Origin: Ensifer adhaerens
GTDB lineage: Bacteria; Pseudomonadota; Alphaproteobacteria; Rhizobiales; Rhizobiaceae
Direction: 5' to 3'
NCBI RefSeq assembly: GCF_028993555.1
Contig: NZ_CP118610.1
Span: 4,091,001 to 4,155,000, forward strand
Length of the DNA stretch: 64,000 nucleotides
Below the pieces are notes generated by a model. The model did no database searches, had not been told where the DNA came from, and saw only the letters and a list, made by a program, of their open reading frames with translations. Of the stretch, positions 7,870 through 46,208 are shown piece after piece. Each line of letters begins with the position of its first letter. The first letter of the stretch is position 1. The position numbers and the translations under genes are program-made.

Positions 7870-8073
7870 GCAAATCCCCTGCAACGCGGTATGCCGGGCT
7901 CTTCCTGTCCGGACGTATTCGCGCAATCCTGAGTTGAAGGCAGCTTCCTTAGGTTCGTCCCCGCTGCTGCTCTAATCGTTAATAAAGAGTTAATCGTGTC
8001 GACGCTGCAGAGTCAATCGTCGGATTCGGTGCATCGGATTTTATGGTTAAAAGCGCTGTCGTGCGCGCGAAAA

Positions 8074-8116
8074 CCCTTGCGCCGTGGGCGGTCCACGGCG
8101 CAGGGCGGTTTTTCGG
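8074..8116. terminator. Terminator hairpin downstream of the alpha/beta hydrolase gene
   Basis: Long stem TTGCGCCGTGG / CCACGGCGCA with loop GCGGT. On the minus strand it is followed by GGGTTTT, and it lies about 45 bases past the hydrolase stop. The plus-strand side also has a T run, so it may act in both directions. The remaining bases 7870-8073 hold no gene I can support. Confidence 0.65.
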
Positions 8117-8157
8117 GCTAGGTGCGGCGGAAGGGGCGGGCGTTTTCCCGCCTGGGC

Positions 8158-8958
8158 TCAGGCGAGCATCGTGCCGATGGCCTGCTTCATTTTAGCGATG
8201 TCTTCTTCACGCGAAAGGCGATGGTCGCCATCGCGGATGAGTGTCATGACGACATCGTCGCAGGGCAGATGCTCCATCAGCCGCAGCGCATGGGTATAGG
8301 GCACATCGGGGTCGCACATGCCTTGCAGAATGTGCACCGGGCAGCCGGTCGTGATCGTGCCCTCGAGCACCCGGTTCGCGCGCCCGTCTTCGATGAGGGC
8401 GCGGGTGAAGATGTTCGGCTCCGGGCTGTATTCGGAAGGCTCCTCGAAATAGCCGCGTTCGGCAAGCGAGGCTCTCTCCGCTTCCGTCAGGTTGGGTTCG
8501 ATCAGTTCGGCGGTGAAGTCCGGCGCCGGCGCAATCAGCACCACGCCGGCAACGCGTGATCCGTCGCCACGCCGCTGGAGTTCCTGGATAACCCGCAACG
8601 CAATCCAGCAGCCCATCGAAGAGCCGATCAGCACGACGCGGCCTGGCGCCGCCCGATCAATGACCGCAAGGCTTTCCTCGAGCCAGCGCGAGATCGTGCC
8701 ATCGGTGAAGGCGCCGCCGGAGGCGCCGTGGCCGGAATAGTCGAAGCGCACACAGGCGGTCCCCCGTTCCATGGCATAGCGCTCAACCTCCACCGCCTTG
8801 GTGCCGGTCATGTCCGAGCGGTAGCCGCCGAGCCAGACGAGCGTCGGCTGCCCTGAGGGCTTTTCCGGGTGGCGCACGCGCATTGCGATCCTGCGCTCAG
8901 CCGCAGGCGCGCCGACGTCGATGAAGCTGATTTCCGTCTCGGCTGGCGTATCCTGCAT
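8158..8958 (-). CDS. Alpha/beta hydrolase (putative esterase/thioesterase)
   Basis: A 266-residue cytoplasmic alpha/beta hydrolase. The nucleophile elbow is GSSMG (S114), the oxyanion-loop region is WLGGYRSDM, and a late aspartate (CDPDVPYTH) and histidine (DGDHRLS) complete a likely triad. Overall pattern resembles ABHD10/palmitoyl-thioesterase-like enzymes. The ATG at 8958 is preceded by GGAGAG at an ideal distance; a TTG five codons upstream is less likely. It is divergent from infC and monocistronic. Substrate unknown. Confidence 0.8.
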   Translation of the reverse strand: MQDTPAETEISFIDVGAPAAERRIAMRVRHPEKPSGQPTLVWLGGYRSDMTGTKAVEVERYAMERGTACVRFDYSGHGASGGAFTDGTISRWLEESLAVIDRAAPGRVVLIGSSMGCWIALRVIQELQRRGDGSRVAGVVLIAPAPDFTAELIEPNLTEAERASLAERGYFEEPSEYSPEPNIFTRALIEDGRANRVLEGTITTGCPVHILQGMCDPDVPYTHALRLMEHLPCDDVVMTLIRDGDHRLSREEDIAKMKQAIGTMLA

Positions 8959-9177
8959 GCAATTTCTCTCCAAAGGCCGGTTTCGCTGGCGATTTTCTTT
9001 CTAAAACAGATTCGCCTTGGTATCGACAGGTGGTGATTTTCCTTGCAAGCCGTGCTATTGACTCTCGCGCCGCAATTCACACATTGCCGTCGGTGACAGA
9101 TTCAGGCGCTTCGTTTGTGATCGCGCCGACGATCGAATTAAACAACATTTCGGAAATAGCTCGAGGAGAGTACGACC

Positions 9178-9714
9178 ATTCGCAGACCGTTCAAAGCGGA
9201 CGCCCCAGTCAAGGAGGGGCCGCGCTCAAACAAGGAAATCCGGGTTCCCCGGGTTCAGCTTATCGATGCCGAAGGCCAGAATATCGGTGTCGTACCGATC
9301 GACCAGGCGCTCCGCATGGCGGAAGAGGCCGGTCTCGATCTGGTAGAAATCGCACCGAACTCTGAACCGCCGGTGTGCAAGATTCTGGATCTTGGCAAGC
9401 TGAAATACGCCAACCAGAAGAAGGCGGCCGAAGCGCGCAAGAAGCAGAAGATCGTCGAAATCAAAGAAATCAAGATGCGCCCGAACATCGACACGCATGA
9501 CTATGACGTGAAGATGAAGGCGATGAACCGGTTCTTCGAGGACGGCGACAAGGTCAAGGTCACGCTGAAGTTCCGCGGCCGCGAAATGGCCCACCAGGAA
9601 CTGGGCATGAAGCTTCTGCTTCAGGTCAAGGATGATACCCAGGCGATCGCCAAGGTGGAGGCCGAGCCGAAGCTCGAAGGCCGCCAGATGATGATGGTTC
9701 TGGCGCCGCGCTAA
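9178..9714 (+). CDS. infC: Translation initiation factor IF-3 (ATT start codon)
   Basis: IF-3 (178 residues) binds the 30S subunit, prevents premature 50S joining and proofreads start codons. The frame begins at ATT (9178-9180), seven bases after a strong ribosome site GAGGAGAG, and encodes [20 protein letters not shown], the conserved rhizobial N-terminus. The first in-frame ATG, at 9316, would delete about 46 conserved residues. Non-canonical AUU initiation is the known basis of infC autoregulation in enterobacteria, since IF-3 discriminates against it. Followed by its own terminator. The rpmI and rplT genes lie 3.7 kb away here rather than directly downstream. Confidence 0.95.
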
Positions 9715-9745
9715 GCCGCCGCTGCCATCGATCGCAGAAGTGATG

Positions 9746-9773
9746 AAAGCCGCCTTCCGGGCGGCTTTTTTCG
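9746..9773 (+). terminator. Rho-independent terminator of infC
   Basis: Stem AAAGCCGCC / GGCGGCTTT with a short TTCCG loop, followed by six T residues, 30 bases after the infC stop. Confidence 0.9.
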
Positions 9774-9797
9774 TTGCCGGAACCATGCCGGCGCTTT

Positions 9798-9836
9798 CTG
9801 ACAGAATGCTGACAACCACCCTCAGCGGTCTGTCAG
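9798..9836. promoter_or_regulatory. Putative OmpR-family operator upstream of the acidic-protein/two-component operon
   Basis: CTGACA occurs at 9798 and 9809, exactly 11 bases apart, the one-turn spacing usual for tandem binding by OmpR/PhoB-type regulators, and an inverted copy CTGTCAG lies at 9830-9836. The cluster is 50-90 bases upstream of the first gene of an operon that itself encodes such a regulator. Autoregulation is inferred. Confidence 0.5.
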
Positions 9837-9887
9837 CGGGCGGATGCCATTCTCCGTGCATAGGCAACAGGAGAAGGACCGGAGATC

Positions 9888-10439
9888 ATGAGTTCAGCGC
9901 TGCGAAAAGCCCTACTTGTTTCCACGCTCGGTCTGTGCGGGCTCGTTTCGGCACCCATCGGCCTGTCGGTAATCGCAACTGGTCCGGCGCATCCTTTCTC
10001 GGCCGCAGCTCTTGCCGATGATGATGATGATGATGATCACGGCGGTAATGATCGTGGTGGCCGCGGTCATGACGGACGGGACGATCGCGGTCACGATGAC
10101 GACAACGACCGGCATGGCGTTGATCGGGATGATGACGGCGACGATCATCATCGCGGCCCGGGCCGACGCGACGACGATGATGATGATGATGATTTCGACG
10201 ATAACGACGACGTGCGCGATGCCCGCGATCGTCCCGAGATCGAACTCCGCGTGTCCGAGGAAAGCCTTCGCGGTCTGCGCGACGGATCGCTGATCGCCGT
10301 CGATGATCTCGGCCGTGTGCTCGAGGTCGAAGTGGAGTTCGAAGATGGCGTTCGCATTGTGACCGTCGAGCCGCACCGCGGCGATTTCCGCCGTAACCCG
10401 GGACCGATTACCAGCGTCTCGATCAAGCCGGCACGCTGA
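9888..10439 (+). CDS. Exported Asp/His/Gly-rich acidic protein
   Basis: A 183-residue protein of unrecognised family. Residues 1-43 look like a signal peptide ending SAAALA. Residues about 44-115 are a low-complexity tract of Asp runs mixed with His, Gly and Arg, partly encoded by GAT trinucleotide repeats. Residues about 116-183 form a compact non-repetitive domain (IELRVSEESLRGLRDGSLIA onward). Such a tract could bind calcium or transition metals in the periplasm, but this is inference. It is the first gene of a unit that continues with a second acidic PepSY protein, a response regulator and a sensor kinase, so a role in signal input or as the main regulated product is plausible. Confidence 0.7.
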   Translation: MSSALRKALLVSTLGLCGLVSAPIGLSVIATGPAHPFSAAALADDDDDDDHGGNDRGGRGHDGRDDRGHDDDNDRHGVDRDDDGDDHHRGPGRRDDDDDDDDFDDNDDVRDARDRPEIELRVSEESLRGLRDGSLIAVDDLGRVLEVEVEFEDGVRIVTVEPHRGDFRRNPGPITSVSIKPAR

Positions 10440-10489
10440 TCTGTTCGGAACTTGCCCGGCGCATTACCCCCGCACCCTGCGCCGGTGCA

Positions 10490-10570
10490 AGGGTCGACCG
10501 CCACAGCTCGCCCGGCGGTTCGACCCTGCCAAGCGCATGCCCCCGTGCCCACGTGGCGCTGGGGGTATGC
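10490..10570 (+). other. Two adjacent hairpins in the long spacer between the acidic-protein genes
   Basis: The 257-base spacer contains AGGGTCGACCGCC (10490-10502) facing GGCGGTTCGACCCT (10513-10526), one bulged base, then GCATGCCCCC (10535-10544) facing GGGGGTATGC (10561-10570). No T run follows either, so they look like structured mRNA or processing sites rather than terminators. I see no convincing gene in the spacer. Confidence 0.5.
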
Positions 10571-10696
10571 GCGTTGCTGGCGTTGTGGCGATAGCGTTGG
10601 CTGGCGCGTCATGGGCGCCGGCTCGGGACGCCAGCCCGCAAACGCGCCAAGGAAAACGACTCTGAACGGAAACGGCGACCGCGACTGGATGACGCC

Positions 10697-11206
10697 ATGG
10701 CGATGACACGACGAGACCTGATTGCGCTCTTCTGCTGTTCGTTCCTGCTTTCGCTTGCGCCGCAACCCGGTCGCTTGGCAGCCCTTGCCAAGGACGGCGA
10801 GTCCGGCAGCGATGGTGGTTCGCATGGAGGCGATAGCGGTAGCAGTGGCCACGGTGGCGGAGACGATGACCACGATGACGATCGCGGAAACAAGGGCGAC
10901 GGCAACGACGGCGATGATGACGATGACGATGAAGACGACGACGGTGATGGTGGCACTGGCGGCGGCGGTCGCCGCAGCGACCAGGAGCGCGCGCGCGATG
11001 CCGTGGAGAAAGGCGATATCCTGCCGTTGAAGGACGTTCTCCGACTGGTCGACGAGGACAGATACGGCAGGGTCATCGGCGTTGATCTCAGGCGCTCCGG
11101 CAGCAGCGAGGTTTACCGTCTGCGCACGCGCGACCGGCAGGGGACGATCCGCAACCTGCGCATCAATGCGCGCACTGGAAAGTTCATGAACATCTTTGGT
11201 TTCTGA
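10697..11206 (+). CDS. Exported acidic protein with C-terminal PepSY domain
   Basis: A 169-residue exported protein. After an N-terminal hydrophobic signal (LIALFCCSFLLSLAP), residues about 32-95 are Asp/Gly/Ser/His-rich low complexity with a long Asp run. Residues about 98-169 match a PepSY domain: ARDAVEKGDILPLKDVLRLV, then GRVIGVDL and a closing INARTGKFMN. PepSY domains inhibit or modulate partner proteins in the periplasm. It ends 8 bases before the response regulator gene, so co-transcription is near certain. By analogy with FeuN, a small periplasmic modulator encoded beside the FeuP/FeuQ system in Sinorhizobium, it could tune the adjacent kinase. Confidence 0.78.
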   Translation: MAMTRRDLIALFCCSFLLSLAPQPGRLAALAKDGESGSDGGSHGGDSGSSGHGGGDDDHDDDRGNKGDGNDGDDDDDDEDDDGDGGTGGGGRRSDQERARDAVEKGDILPLKDVLRLVDEDRYGRVIGVDLRRSGSSEVYRLRTRDRQGTIRNLRINARTGKFMNIFGF

Positions 11207-11214
11207 GGGGCGGC

Positions 11215-11880
11215 ATGCGCATTCTTCTGGCGGAGGACGATCCCAACATAGCAGCCCACGTGACAAGCAGGCTCGAGGCGGCGGGCTACGGCGTTGATCG
11301 GCTCGCCTTGAGTCCAGACATCTGGGAGCGCGGCGAAAGCGGCAACTATACCGCGATCATTCTCGACCTTGGCCTGCCGGGCATGGACGGGCTGTCGATC
11401 CTCAAGCGCTGGCGGCAGGCCGGGCTGGAGACGCCGGTGCTGGTGCTGACGGCGCGAGGCTCCTGGATGGAGCGCGTCGACGGGTTCGACGCCGGTGCGG
11501 ACGACTATCTGCCGAAACCCTTTCGCGCGGAGGAACTGCTGGCGCGGCTGCGGGCCCTGCTGCGGCGCGCCGGTCCGCGCATCACGTCTGTCCGCGCCGC
11601 CGGGCGTTTCATCCTCGACGAGGCGACGCGACGTGTGACCTTCGACGGAGAGCCGCTTGAACTCAGCCCGCTCGAGTATCGGATGATCGCGCTCTTCGTG
11701 GATCGCAAGGGCCAGGTCATCACGCCGCTGGAACTGGCAAGCCATGTTCAGGGGCGCGATGACGATGCGGCCAAGAATGCCGTCGAAGCGATGATCGGCC
11801 GTCTGCGCAAGAAGACAGGAAGCGGTGCGATCGAGACCCGTCGCGGCTTCGGCTACGTTCTACCGGACGGCCCGGCATGA
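11215..11880 (+). CDS. OmpR/PhoB-family response regulator (PhoP/FeuP-like)
   Basis: A 221-residue two-domain regulator. The receiver (about 1-115) has acidic pocket residues D8/D9, phosphoacceptor D51 in LDLGLPGMDG and conserved K101 in LPKPF. The C-terminal winged helix (about 125-218) has the typical LELSPLEYRMI start and ETRRGFGYVL end. Its stop overlaps the start of the sensor kinase gene by four bases (ATGA). It resembles the PhoP/FeuP subgroup, but I cannot show it is FeuP itself. Likely targets include its own operon, given the 11-base-spaced repeats upstream. Confidence 0.92.
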   Translation: MRILLAEDDPNIAAHVTSRLEAAGYGVDRLALSPDIWERGESGNYTAIILDLGLPGMDGLSILKRWRQAGLETPVLVLTARGSWMERVDGFDAGADDYLPKPFRAEELLARLRALLRRAGPRITSVRAAGRFILDEATRRVTFDGEPLELSPLEYRMIALFVDRKGQVITPLELASHVQGRDDDAAKNAVEAMIGRLRKKTGSGAIETRRGFGYVLPDGPA

Positions 11881-13244
11881 TCCGGTCACTGCGGCTGAGG
11901 CTCGCCATCGGCGCCTCGATCGCCATAGGCCTGGTGCTGCTGGTGGTCTGGCTCTCCTTGAGCAGGCTATTTACCGATTACGTCGTCGATCGCTATCGCG
12001 CGGAGATGGCGACGCTGGTCGATACGATTGCCGCCCAGGTAGCGGTGCGCAACGGCGAACTCGTCCTGCCACGAGAGCCGGCTGATCCGCGGCTGAGCCT
12101 GCCGGCCGGCGGACGCTACTGGCAGATCACCAGCGACGGCCGTGCGCCCATCCGTTCGCGCTCTTTGTGGGATACGGTCATCGACGGCGATCGCCCATCG
12201 GCGGCGCGCCATCTGGGGTTCCTGGAGATGGAAGGTCCGGACGGAGCGCCCGTGCTGGTCTACCAGCAGGCGCTGACCCTCGGTGAGGGGCCGGAGGCAC
12301 AACGGTTTTCTGTTGCTGCCGGCTTTGCGCGCAGCGAGCTTGACGATGCGCTGGCCGCCTTTCACAGCCAGATCCGGCTTATGCTCGTTGCAACCGCCCT
12401 CGTGCTCGCCGGCGCTGCGTTCCTGCAAGGTGCCCTCGGACTTTTGCCGCTGGTGCGCTTGCGCGAGAGGGCAGCCCGTGTTCGCTCCGGCGAAGAGAAG
12501 GACTTCGGCTCGGCCGGTCCAAGCGAAGTGCGGCCGCTGGTCGCCGAGATAAATCTACTGCTTTCCGAGCGCGAGGCAGCCTTGACGCAAGCGCGCGCCC
12601 GTGCCAGCGACCTTGCCCACGGCCTGAAGACGCCGTTGACCGTGCTCGCACAACTGGTCGAAAGCCTGCCGCAGGACCAGCGTCGGATCGCGCTCGAGCA
12701 GGTCGATCTCGTGCGCCAGCGCGCCGATCGCCAGCTTCAGGCAGCTCGTATGGGCGTGGAGCGCATGGCGACCACGTCGATTGCCAGCCTTGGTGGCAAG
12801 CTGGTCAACGTGCTGCGCCCGATCACGGGCGAGCGCGACGTCGTCTGGGAGGTGGATATCGACCCGTCAATCTCGCTCGACGTCGATCCGGCCGACCTCG
12901 CCGAATGCCTCGGCAACTTGCTCGACAACGCCGCCAAATGGGCGCGGACCCGCATCCGCCTTTCGGCCGAGGCGGCCGGCGGGCGCGTGCGCATTGTCGT
13001 TGGCGATGATGGTCCGGGCGTCGCCGAGGGCGACCGGGAACAGGCGTTGCGCCGCGGGACGCATGGCGAGAACGCGGCGGGCAATCACGCCGCAAACACC
13101 GGTCTCGGACTTGCGATCAGCGCCGATATCGCGGATGCCTATGGTGCGGTGCTGTCGCTCGGGCAGTCGCCGTTGGGCGGCCTCGAGACCGCGTTGACTT
13201 TCGAGGCGAGTGGCGGCCGTCTCAAACCGCGCGATCCCGCCTAG
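11877..13244 (+). CDS. Membrane sensor histidine kinase (PhoQ/FeuQ-like)
   Basis: A 455-residue kinase partnered with the preceding regulator. It has two transmembrane helices (about 9-29 and 166-190) bounding a periplasmic sensor loop of about 135 residues. The dimerisation/phosphoacceptor helix is ARASDLAHGLKTPL with H248, the N box is LGNLLDNAAKWA, and glycine-rich ATP-lid motifs GDDGPG and NTGLGLAI follow. The PhoQ-type H box (DLAHGLKTPL) and the loop length fit PhoQ/FeuQ-like kinases that read periplasmic cations or inhibitor proteins. That is in keeping with the two acidic exported proteins encoded upstream. The ligand is unknown. Confidence 0.92.
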   Translation: MIRSLRLRLAIGASIAIGLVLLVVWLSLSRLFTDYVVDRYRAEMATLVDTIAAQVAVRNGELVLPREPADPRLSLPAGGRYWQITSDGRAPIRSRSLWDTVIDGDRPSAARHLGFLEMEGPDGAPVLVYQQALTLGEGPEAQRFSVAAGFARSELDDALAAFHSQIRLMLVATALVLAGAAFLQGALGLLPLVRLRERAARVRSGEEKDFGSAGPSEVRPLVAEINLLLSEREAALTQARARASDLAHGLKTPLTVLAQLVESLPQDQRRIALEQVDLVRQRADRQLQAARMGVERMATTSIASLGGKLVNVLRPITGERDVVWEVDIDPSISLDVDPADLAECLGNLLDNAAKWARTRIRLSAEAAGGRVRIVVGDDGPGVAEGDREQALRRGTHGENAAGNHAANTGLGLAISADIADAYGAVLSLGQSPLGGLETALTFEASGGRLKPRDPA

Positions 13245-13466
13245 GGTACGTGCTGCCAACGTGCTAGAGATGCGTTGGGCAACGATAGCGAAGCGCCCGG
13301 CCGCGCGCTTGCGGCGCCATCTTCGATTCCCCAGTTGCGCTTTTCGGGATGTGCGGTTATAAGCCCCCGTCCGAACGGTCCGGCAGGGCATGCCGTGGCC
13401 GTTCTTAACGCTGGAAATGGACCTCGTCTGTCCGTTTCGAATTCTTAAGAACAATGGAGTAGCAAA

Positions 13467-13670
13467 ATGCCCAAGATGAAGACGAAATCGTCTGCCAAGA
13501 AGCGGTTCAAGATCACCGCGACCGGCAAGGTTCGTGCAGCGGCTGCTGGTAAGCGCCACGGCATGATCAAGCGTACCAATAAGTTCATCCGCGACGCGCG
13601 TGGAACCATGGTTCTCGCCGAGCCCGATGGCAAGAAGGTCATCAAGAACTACCTGCCGAACGGTCTCTAA
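13467..13670 (+). CDS. rpmI: 50S ribosomal protein L35
   Basis: L35 (67 residues), a small basic structural protein of the large ribosomal subunit. [20 protein letters not shown] is the canonical start and IKNYLPNGL the usual alphaproteobacterial end. Followed after 39 bases by rplT in one transcript. TGGAG precedes the ATG. The 222-base leader upstream (13245-13466) holds no gene; it contains the palindrome TTCTTAAGAA (13442-13451) close to the ribosome site, possibly relevant to ribosomal-protein feedback control, though I cannot show this. Confidence 0.97.
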
Positions 13671-13709
13671 GACTTTCAGGCATATTGGACACGTTAAGGA
13701 GATCATGAC

Positions 13710-14114
13710 ATGGCACGTGTAAAACGCGGCGTTACCGCCCACGCCAAGCACAAGAAGACGCTCAAGGCAGCCAAGGGCTTCTACGGCCGTCGCAAGAACA
13801 CCATCCGCGCCGCCAAGGCAGCGGTTGACCGTTCGAAGCAGTACGCTTACCGCGACCGCAAGGTCAACAAGCGCAACTTCCGCGCTCTCTGGATCCAGCG
13901 CATCAACGCTGCCGTCCGCGAATTCGGCCTGACCTACGGCCGCTTCATCGACGGCCTGAACAAGGCTGGCATCGAAGTCGACCGCAAGGTTCTGTCCGAC
14001 ATGGCGATCCATGAGCCGGCAGCATTCGGCGCCCTCGTCGAAGCTTCCAAGAAGGCGCTTGCCTACCTCAAGGAAGCCGGCACGACGAACGAGTTTGAAA
14101 GCGCTGTCCGTTAA
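13710..14114 (+). CDS. rplT: 50S ribosomal protein L20
   Basis: L20 (134 residues) is an early assembly protein that binds 23S rRNA. The conserved start [20 protein letters not shown] and the core [20 protein letters not shown] are present, with the slightly extended C-terminus usual in rhizobia. In many bacteria L20 represses its own operon by binding leader RNA. The pair rpmI-rplT is closed by a strong terminator about 40 bases after this gene. Confidence 0.97.
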
Positions 14115-14154
14115 GCCAGCGTTTTCCCAAAACCGTACTTAAAATTCGTTGGGA

Positions 14155-45821: not shown

Positions 45822-46208
45822 TGTGGGACCGAATGCAGTGCGAAATATAAGGCCGCGCAAGCCGCCGGCTCGCTCAATGGCATGAAATGGAATGACTTCC
45901 TGAAGGCGCAATGCGGAACCGACACCGCTGCCAAACCGGCAGTCATGACAAATGAAGAGCCGAAGGCCGCCAACACGGACAACGCGCCGGAGCCAGCGGC
46001 AACGACGGCAAAGGCGCCGAAGGGCGTGGTTTTCCCGAAGAAGGTCGACCCGAGATAATCGAATGAAGCCGCCGGAAAGGCGCGTATGCATACCTGCCTC
46101 GACCAATACAAGGCCGACAAGGCGAACAACACCTTGGGTGACCTCAACTGGATCAAGAAGGGCGGTGGCTACTACAGCATCTGCAATTCGCAACTGAAGC
46201 ATTCCTGA
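45822..46208 (+). pseudogene. Decayed small exported-protein gene (in-frame stop, missing signal peptide)
   Basis: Two homologous modules can be read in one frame. The first is TECSAKYKAAQAAGSLNGMK with KWNDFLKAQCG, then an Ala/Pro/Glu linker, then GVVFPKKVDPR. At 46056-46058 a TAA interrupts; after it the same frame continues SNEAAGKARMHTCLDQYKAD, then WIKKGGGYYSICNSQLKHS and a stop at 46208. Relatives in rhizobia (from memory) read through with a tyrosine there and start with a signal peptide, which is missing upstream here: the frame open to 45723 encodes an Arg-rich, unrelated stretch. Both ends therefore point to inactivation. A sequencing error at the TAA is a remaining alternative. Confidence 0.65.

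Follow-up and report, generated by a model that had tools for sequence, protein, structure and literature searches.

We analysed a 64,000-nucleotide (nt) stretch of the Ensifer adhaerens genome (assembly GCF_028993555.1, NZ_CP118610.1:4,091,001-4,155,000, forward strand; below called the window, with positions counted within it), which is part of a genome of 7.77 Mb in four contigs (G000), and concentrated on four plus-strand genes located between infC (9316-9714) and rpmI (13467-13670). These genes encode two exported-looking, Asp-rich proteins, here called AspA and AspB, an OmpR-family response regulator and a membrane histidine kinase. The set is preceded by a four-part operator sequence, which is conserved and was found placed before related modules in other genomes. 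The explanation that we prefer, with our confidence evenly divided for and against, is that of an autoregulated circuit that senses the state of the envelope and is of the same PepSY-regulator-kinase kind as DbfQRS and BqsRS, with AspB as the brake. The core of the module is of a known kind; what is added here comprises the operator, recurring Asp/His/Gly tracts and a conserved RNA structure.

AspA (9888-10439, plus strand like all features below; 183 residues) consists of a signal-like N-terminus, a low-complexity acidic tract (residues 45-113, at 10020-10226; 48% Asp over 69 residues) and a conserved C-terminal domain, and its precursor has a summed charge of -25. AspB (10697-11206; 169 residues) consists of a twin-arginine-like N-terminus, a low-complexity tract (residues 31-94, at 10787-10978; 33% Asp and 45% Gly plus Ser over 64 residues, with a model confidence of about 45-52) and a C-terminal PepSY domain (residues 92-169, at 10970-11203). 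Judged from their N-termini, both proteins look exported; a hydrophobic N-terminus with what we take to be a twin-arginine-like motif is found in 27 of 33 aligned AspB sequences, and three of the six that lack it start downstream of the motif. In numbers of residues AspA contains 40 D, 8 H and 21 G (longest D run 8) and AspB 30 D, 3 H and 30 G (longest D run 6). Their Asp fractions (22% and 18%) rank first and second among the 164 ATG-started open reading frames (ORFs) of at least 100 residues in the window and represent a clear excess over a background of 6% (binomial P of 9e-13 and 9e-8, respectively); Asp is encoded by both codons (27 GAT and 13 GAC in AspA; 13 GAT and 17 GAC in AspB).

The first-pass annotation, made from the letters of the window, had described two Asp-rich exported proteins, one of which ends in a PepSY domain, followed by a regulator and a kinase that overlap by four bases. 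That description was borne out on the plus strand, where the last two ORFs share ATGA, and the PepSY domain is that of AspB according to the family alignment and the structure model, its own Pfam match being weak (E 0.075; 13.8 bits versus a cut-off of 24). PF03413 is matched at E ≤ 0.1 by 27 of the 33 aligned AspB members, including the window copy (best E 1e-4). The modelled block of residues 101-160 has a predicted local distance difference test score (pLDDT) of 88-94 and YpmB as its top Foldseek match (probability 1.00; root-mean-square deviation 2.0 over 59 columns, with an E-value of only 0.024), and in this model the C-terminus of AspB takes a PepSY-like fold. The window AspA gave no match in Pfam, NCBIfam or PHROGs; of 24 aligned AspA members five weakly touch TOBE_2 (best E 0.015). 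A search with the AspA C-terminal domain recovered 24 proteins, and every one with a named organism belongs to Ensifer or Sinorhizobium.

The regulator (11215-11880; 221 residues) was assigned by its Pfam domains (PF00072 and PF00486), its residues and its position in a tree: it has a receiver with D51 in a DLGLP context and the lysine of LPKPF, and a winged helix. The kinase (11877-13244; 455 residues; PF02518) has hydrophobic stretches at about residues 4-37 and 159-193 that flank a periplasmic domain, H248 within HGLKTPL, and the N and G boxes. As far as can be read from the motifs, the signature and catalytic residues of both proteins are intact. The best NCBIfam model for the kinase was PhoQ, far under its cut-off, and its nearest named relatives are from Ensifer strains (e.g. 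Ensifer sesbaniae, 89%).

The gene set is a linked unit, as had been proposed. We searched 61 genomes on the basis of the kinase, 16 of which are Ensifer with the own genome included, and recovered a kinase copy (74-100% identity) in 14 of these 16; apart from the own genome, each of the 13 carriers shows the same order, infC-AspA-AspB-regulator-kinase-rpmI. The block was lost in the remaining two: in G008 none of the four genes is present between infC and rpmI, and in G014 only a kinase remnant of about the last 43 codons is left there. Beyond the genus set, AspB, regulator and kinase are kept together in all eight named loci (L042-L049); the named loci L033-L041 coincide with nine of the Ensifer genomes G001-G015, so that those two sets are not independent. 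The first-pass annotation had considered that conserved linkage of the exported proteins with the two-component pair might be missing; it is present.

The operator (9798-9836) has the form CTGACA-N5-CTGACA-N6-CTCAG-N5-TGTCAG and stands ahead of the first gene in each of 18 sequences compared; it is composed of four 6-bp half sites in an 11-bp phase, two forward (CTGACA, CTGACA) and two reverse (nCTCAG, TGTCAG). When the 16 Ensifer genomes were scanned with the 23 fixed bases, allowing up to 3 mismatches, the operator occurred once without mismatch in every one of the 14 genomes that carry the module, always with AspA as the first gene behind it, and it was absent from the module-less G008 and G014; one paralogue (on contig C3 of G004) was also marked, with 2 mismatches, and the reversed-pattern control gave 0 matches in all 16. 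A relaxed form (19 fixed bases, ≤ 3 mismatches) was applied to the own genome and six others. In the own genome it marked just this operon and one more place, C3:456200, which is the promoter of a paralogous PepSY-regulator-kinase module; in G004 and G007 alike it marked a paralogue-type place on C3 plus two others with 3 mismatches, G014 has one further 3-mismatch place and G008 none. From the conservation of the operator and its absence together with the module, the operon is predicted to be under the control of its own regulator, which we infer to bind at 9798-9836, and the gene set appears to switch on mainly itself. The paralogous module itself (G000:C3:452000-462000; L107, 3294-8489) has divergent PepSY_2 and cytochrome b561 genes across its relaxed-form operator.

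The association of operator and module extends over the order. A scan of 297 genomes that was not guided by genes (up to 2 mismatches) yielded 26 sites in 23 genomes, the own genome included, versus 0 of 297 for the reversed control. Eighteen of the 26 sites precede a PepSY gene that is adjoined by a related regulator gene (in two of these AspA stands between site and PepSY gene), and at 22 a related regulator or kinase is found within about 1.5 kb. Among the other arrangements were: sites at the 3' side of a related kinase (L112, L115, L135), a site between a PepSY_2-like gene and a kinase gene (L132), a site adjoining a PepSY_2 gene (L111), and two sites in G168 (L126, G168:C16:34388; L136, G168:C31:1838) between genes for a TolC-type outer membrane protein and an RND adaptor, the gene families there having been tested for L126 only. 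Cytochrome b561 was confirmed by Pfam only in L107 and L132, and PepSY_2 only in L107 and L111; elsewhere, as for the PepSY_2-like gene of L132, these families were assigned by eye. The position of the G168 sites suggests that an efflux pump is a direct target of the operator in that genome. A class-wide scan of 240 genomes gave 3 with a match, namely the own genome and two outside the order, where the site stands directly before a PepSY-regulator-kinase module in both.

When loci were sampled by the kinase rather than by the operator, a site with ≤ 5 mismatches was present in 8 of 16 loci versus 0 of 960 dinucleotide shuffles, and a PepSY match in 13 of the 16. Over 27 sites, with L116 omitted, hardly any variation is seen in the half-site cores (CTGAC, CTGAC, TCAG and GTCA), which is a description rather than a test because these sites were selected by the operator pattern. 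Of the 38 rows of a regulator tree, the 26 that bear an operator all fall in one clade of 31 rows (support 98/100), and the operator label requires 3 changes versus 10.4 in shuffles, a clustering that is biased upward because several rows (among L153-L155 and L161-L168) were chosen for having the operator. The label was read within 1600 nt of the regulator, so that L042 counts as operator-less with its operator at 1604 nt, and that of L152 is also outside; L107 and L138 are the same locus.

The closest characterised systems give the preferred explanation its mechanism. PepSY-regulator-kinase modules are described as widespread across phyla in a study published in 2025 (PMC12714742), and in the DbfQRS system of Vibrio cholerae DbfQ, an exported PepSY protein encoded directly before the OmpR-type regulator and membrane kinase genes dbfRS, binds the kinase DbfS with a Kd of 30 nM, is inferred there to bias it towards its phosphatase activity, and takes part in a system with feedback on its own promoter (PMC12714742). 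The present module agrees with this in having a PepSY-domain protein within four genes of a pair made up of an OmpR-type regulator and a membrane kinase with a periplasmic domain. It differs in that DbfQ has 135 residues and one PepSY domain, and the available passages of that paper mention neither an Asp tract, nor a second exported low-complexity gene, nor the present operator form (PMC12714742). The first-pass annotation had not recognised its combination of two polyanions with a two-component system as characterised; the PepSY-regulator-kinase kind has been characterised. Among the literature matches listed, no paper title concerned this operator or Asp-rich proteins in PepSY two-component modules, and no paper on the present alphaproteobacterial branch came up.

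The BqsRS (CarRS) system of Pseudomonas aeruginosa is similar in another way: two exported genes (PA2658, PA2659) precede the pair (PMC12714742, PMC12666569), and BqsR binds a direct repeat with an 11-bp period, TTAAG-N6-TTAAG, of which up to four units occur at one promoter (PMC4682146). The sequence differs, CTGACA-N5-CTGACA followed by inverted half sites being found here, and a search for TTAAG-N6-TTAAG with ≤ 2 mismatches gave no match in 7994-14127; moreover, both upstream genes of BqsRS are reported to encode PepSY proteins (PMC12714742). The metal-binding PepSY proteins UipA and LanP/LanPepSY are described as having two PepSY domains (PMC8963506, PMC11845868), whereas AspB has one. UzcRS was considered as a further relative, and no PepSY link was found for it in the literature passages available.

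By analogy, the kinase would watch the periplasm and the PepSY domain of AspB would dock on its periplasmic domain, holding it in the phosphatase state; release would come from a signal, the likeliest candidates for which are polyvalent or transition metal cations and cationic stress on the envelope. The phosphorylated regulator would then bind the operator and turn on its own operon, raising the output of all four proteins, among them AspB, whose increase would complete the loop. Being encoded first behind the operator, AspA would be the main product, and the disordered polyanionic tracts of both exported proteins may capture those cations or cationic molecules in the periplasm and thereby act as a buffer for the signal. 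Buffering or sensing of divalent cations by the acidic tracts had already been suggested as a possibility in the first-pass annotation. The direction of control, the restraint by AspB, the ligand and the binding of cations by the tracts are all proposals. Restraint of the kinase by the PepSY protein had been suggested before on the model of FeuN and FeuQ; the idea of restraint gains a precedent in DbfQ and DbfS (PMC12714742), from which we derive it by analogy, and it would apply here by inference. A metal as the signal is proposed because a heavy-metal P-type ATPase gene (over the model cut-off) comes after the paralogous C3 module, with an EF-hand protein nearby, and because BqsS is reported to bind Fe2+ through Glu48 of an ExxE motif (PMC12666569).

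Several observations weigh against this explanation. On the side of the sensor, a PF03413 scan of the own genome (E ≤ 0.1) does not list AspB, and the ExxE motif of BqsS is not conserved, being found in 6 of the 16 kinases read and at two different places (REPAD, of the form RExxD, occurs in 14 of the 16; L047 and L048 were left out of both readings). On the side of the operator, 8 of the 16 kinase-sampled loci have no recognisable site; L116, which adjoins unrelated genes, may be a chance match; and the efflux genes of G168 are RND-type, with the CzcB model under its cut-off, so that a metal link there is putative. Half operators with one mismatch number 33 in the own genome versus 12 in the control, and further weak targets are therefore possible. 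A single further exact CTGACA-N5-CTGACA is present in the genome (G000:C2:880703; L074, L151), before a gene that by eye encodes a tctC-type binding protein; since the same form also occurs in genomes without the module, this box is probably of the TctD type.

The tracts raise the strongest alternative, namely that they are fast-evolving hydrophilic spacers, that the work is done by the PepSY protein, regulator, kinase and operator, and that AspA is a disposable low-complexity passenger. The tracts are not conserved by position: their length and sequence differ among close relatives while the flanking domains are kept. Their Asp content varies as well, and these data also weigh against our preferred explanation. 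Asp makes up 39-58% of the AspA tract in the 13 Ensifer genomes read, compared with 18% in L048, but in L042, L043, L045, L046 and L049 (Sinorhizobium, Ensifer sp. BR816 and Rhizobium sp. Root1334) the first gene retains its N-terminus and operator with only 2-11% Asp, is rich in Gly/Thr/Ser/Glu instead and, as far as readable, lacks the AspA C-terminal domain, and the AspB tract of the same loci has only 8-14% Asp. In G047 the tract of the PepSY protein (L154:4976-5521), which adjoins a related regulator, kinase and operator, is Arg-rich and of opposite charge, and the PepSY proteins of several relatives are without any tract. A strict sensing role of the Asp tracts is weakened by the five loci in which the composition is not kept.

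Other data speak against spacers. The Asp shares of the AspA and AspB tracts covary (Spearman 0.78 over 19 genomes, uncorrected for relatedness and with assembly N in rows L045, L046 and L049), the C-terminal domain of AspA is conserved, and AspA keeps its place behind the operator throughout the module-bearing Ensifer. Similar tracts also recur at the same position in distant families of the order: a PepSY protein with an Asp/Gly/His tract (G058), a PepSY protein with a (GGD)n tract and a divergent, exported-looking Asp/Ser/Gly-rich neighbour (G042), and exported-looking His/Asp/Gly-rich proteins at the operator (G050). This recurrence argues against pure drift. Taken from sequence, low-complexity exported-looking chains recur and are acidic in several lineages, and the data do not support the view that Asp is strictly required; we consider the spacer explanation unlikely, but of all the alternatives it keeps the most weight. 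In the Rhizobium sp. Root1334 locus (L046:3912-4631) the first gene encodes a tandem-repeat protein of ASSDTGAGG units.

Slightly less probable still, in our judgement, is a module that responds to cationic peptides or to damage of the outer membrane, not to metals, with the exported polyanions as decoys for plant nodule peptides or polymyxin-like agents. The charge of the AspA precursor would suit a decoy, DbfQRS is reported to respond to outer-membrane perturbation and membrane-damaging antimicrobials (PMC12714742), and BqsRS to mediate defences against cationic stressors (PMC4682146). The heavy-metal ATPase after the paralogous module speaks against it; the neighbours infC, rpmI and rplT are uninformative either way, no search for peptide-resistance genes having been made.

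It is highly improbable that the module represents the osmosensing system FeuNPQ or a duplicate of it. In FeuNPQ of Sinorhizobium meliloti the modulator gene is predicted to be cotranscribed with its regulator-kinase pair (PMC3616915), a pair that belongs broadly to the same family as the one here; the FeuNPQ-like locus of the own genome shares the layout, with a small exported-looking protein before the pair, and its FeuP-like regulator is 45% identical to that of the module. But this FeuNPQ-like locus exists separately (G000:C1:751500-757500; L150, 1742-4373), the TTCA-N7-TTCA box is not near the module, its sole exact match in the window being at 46195 on the minus strand, and the FeuP-like regulator pairs with that of L030 (100/96), outside the clade of 31 that holds the module. 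The FeuPQ-type label earlier given to the pair is accordingly not one of descent. L150 is called FeuNPQ-like from its layout and box, not from a named sequence: the FeuP-box pattern (at 1862) precedes a small exported-looking ORF, which is followed by the regulator and the kinase. This small ORF reads like one helix plus strands, and FeuN itself may be a divergent PepSY-like protein.

Between AspA and AspB lies a gap of 257 nt (10440-10696) that folds far better than its shuffles (z -4.3); its structured part, hairpins with conserved pairing at 10440-10590, is a possible RNA element. In an alignment of 12 sequences (G004, i.e. L053, G005, i.e. L054, and L048 left out) 98.8% of the cells are paired, compared with 48% or less in slid controls. 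Eight pairs are changed on both sides versus a shuffle mean of 4.6, a value reached in 0 of 500 shuffles, and these changes represent few events because the sequences form two main groups; the number of further pair types (19 versus 19.8) is not above the shuffles. The pairing is conserved by these measures of alignment. The region 10440-10640 is present as a single copy in the genome, and Rfam gave no match in the gap. Possibly this RNA sets the expression of AspA relative to that of AspB, regulator and kinase. Given the 257-nt gap with its conserved hairpins, the single transcript that the first-pass annotation had suggested for the four genes is putative.

A more far-reaching form of our preferred explanation, which we offer tentatively and regard as doubtful, would make the module a closed-loop envelope homeostat. 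The full operator would stand only at PepSY sensor modules, the own one and the paralogue, and the main output, instead of an enzyme or pump, would be disordered polyanions, secreted to titrate exactly the cation or cationic peptide to which the sensor responds. Several families of the order would have arrived anew at this design with its operator, using repeats of Asp, Asp/Gly/His or other residues, and the RNA hairpin array would set the ratio of the sponge (AspA) to the brake and sensor. Irrespective of this, the operator provides a sequence handle that predicts targets of this branch across an order, and autoregulation can be tested directly in a soil bacterium; should exported Asp-rich disorder prove to be the regulated product, it would constitute a little-studied kind of periplasmic buffer.

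Upstream, a terminator-like hairpin (AAAGCCGCC / GGCGGCTTT plus a T run; 9746-9771) was noted by eye after infC, the pattern scan having listed none there; by eye it separates infC from the module, and a similar hairpin is visible in most relatives aligned upstream of the module. The identities of infC, rpmI, rplT and pheT are supported by NCBIfam. In Rhizobium sp. Root1334 neither infC nor rpmI was found in the 13.4 kb examined around the module, which therefore lies elsewhere in that genome. In Sinorhizobium sp. A49 (L040/L051, identical to G002) the gap between infC and AspA is about 1.76 kb, some 1.5 kb longer than in most other Ensifer.

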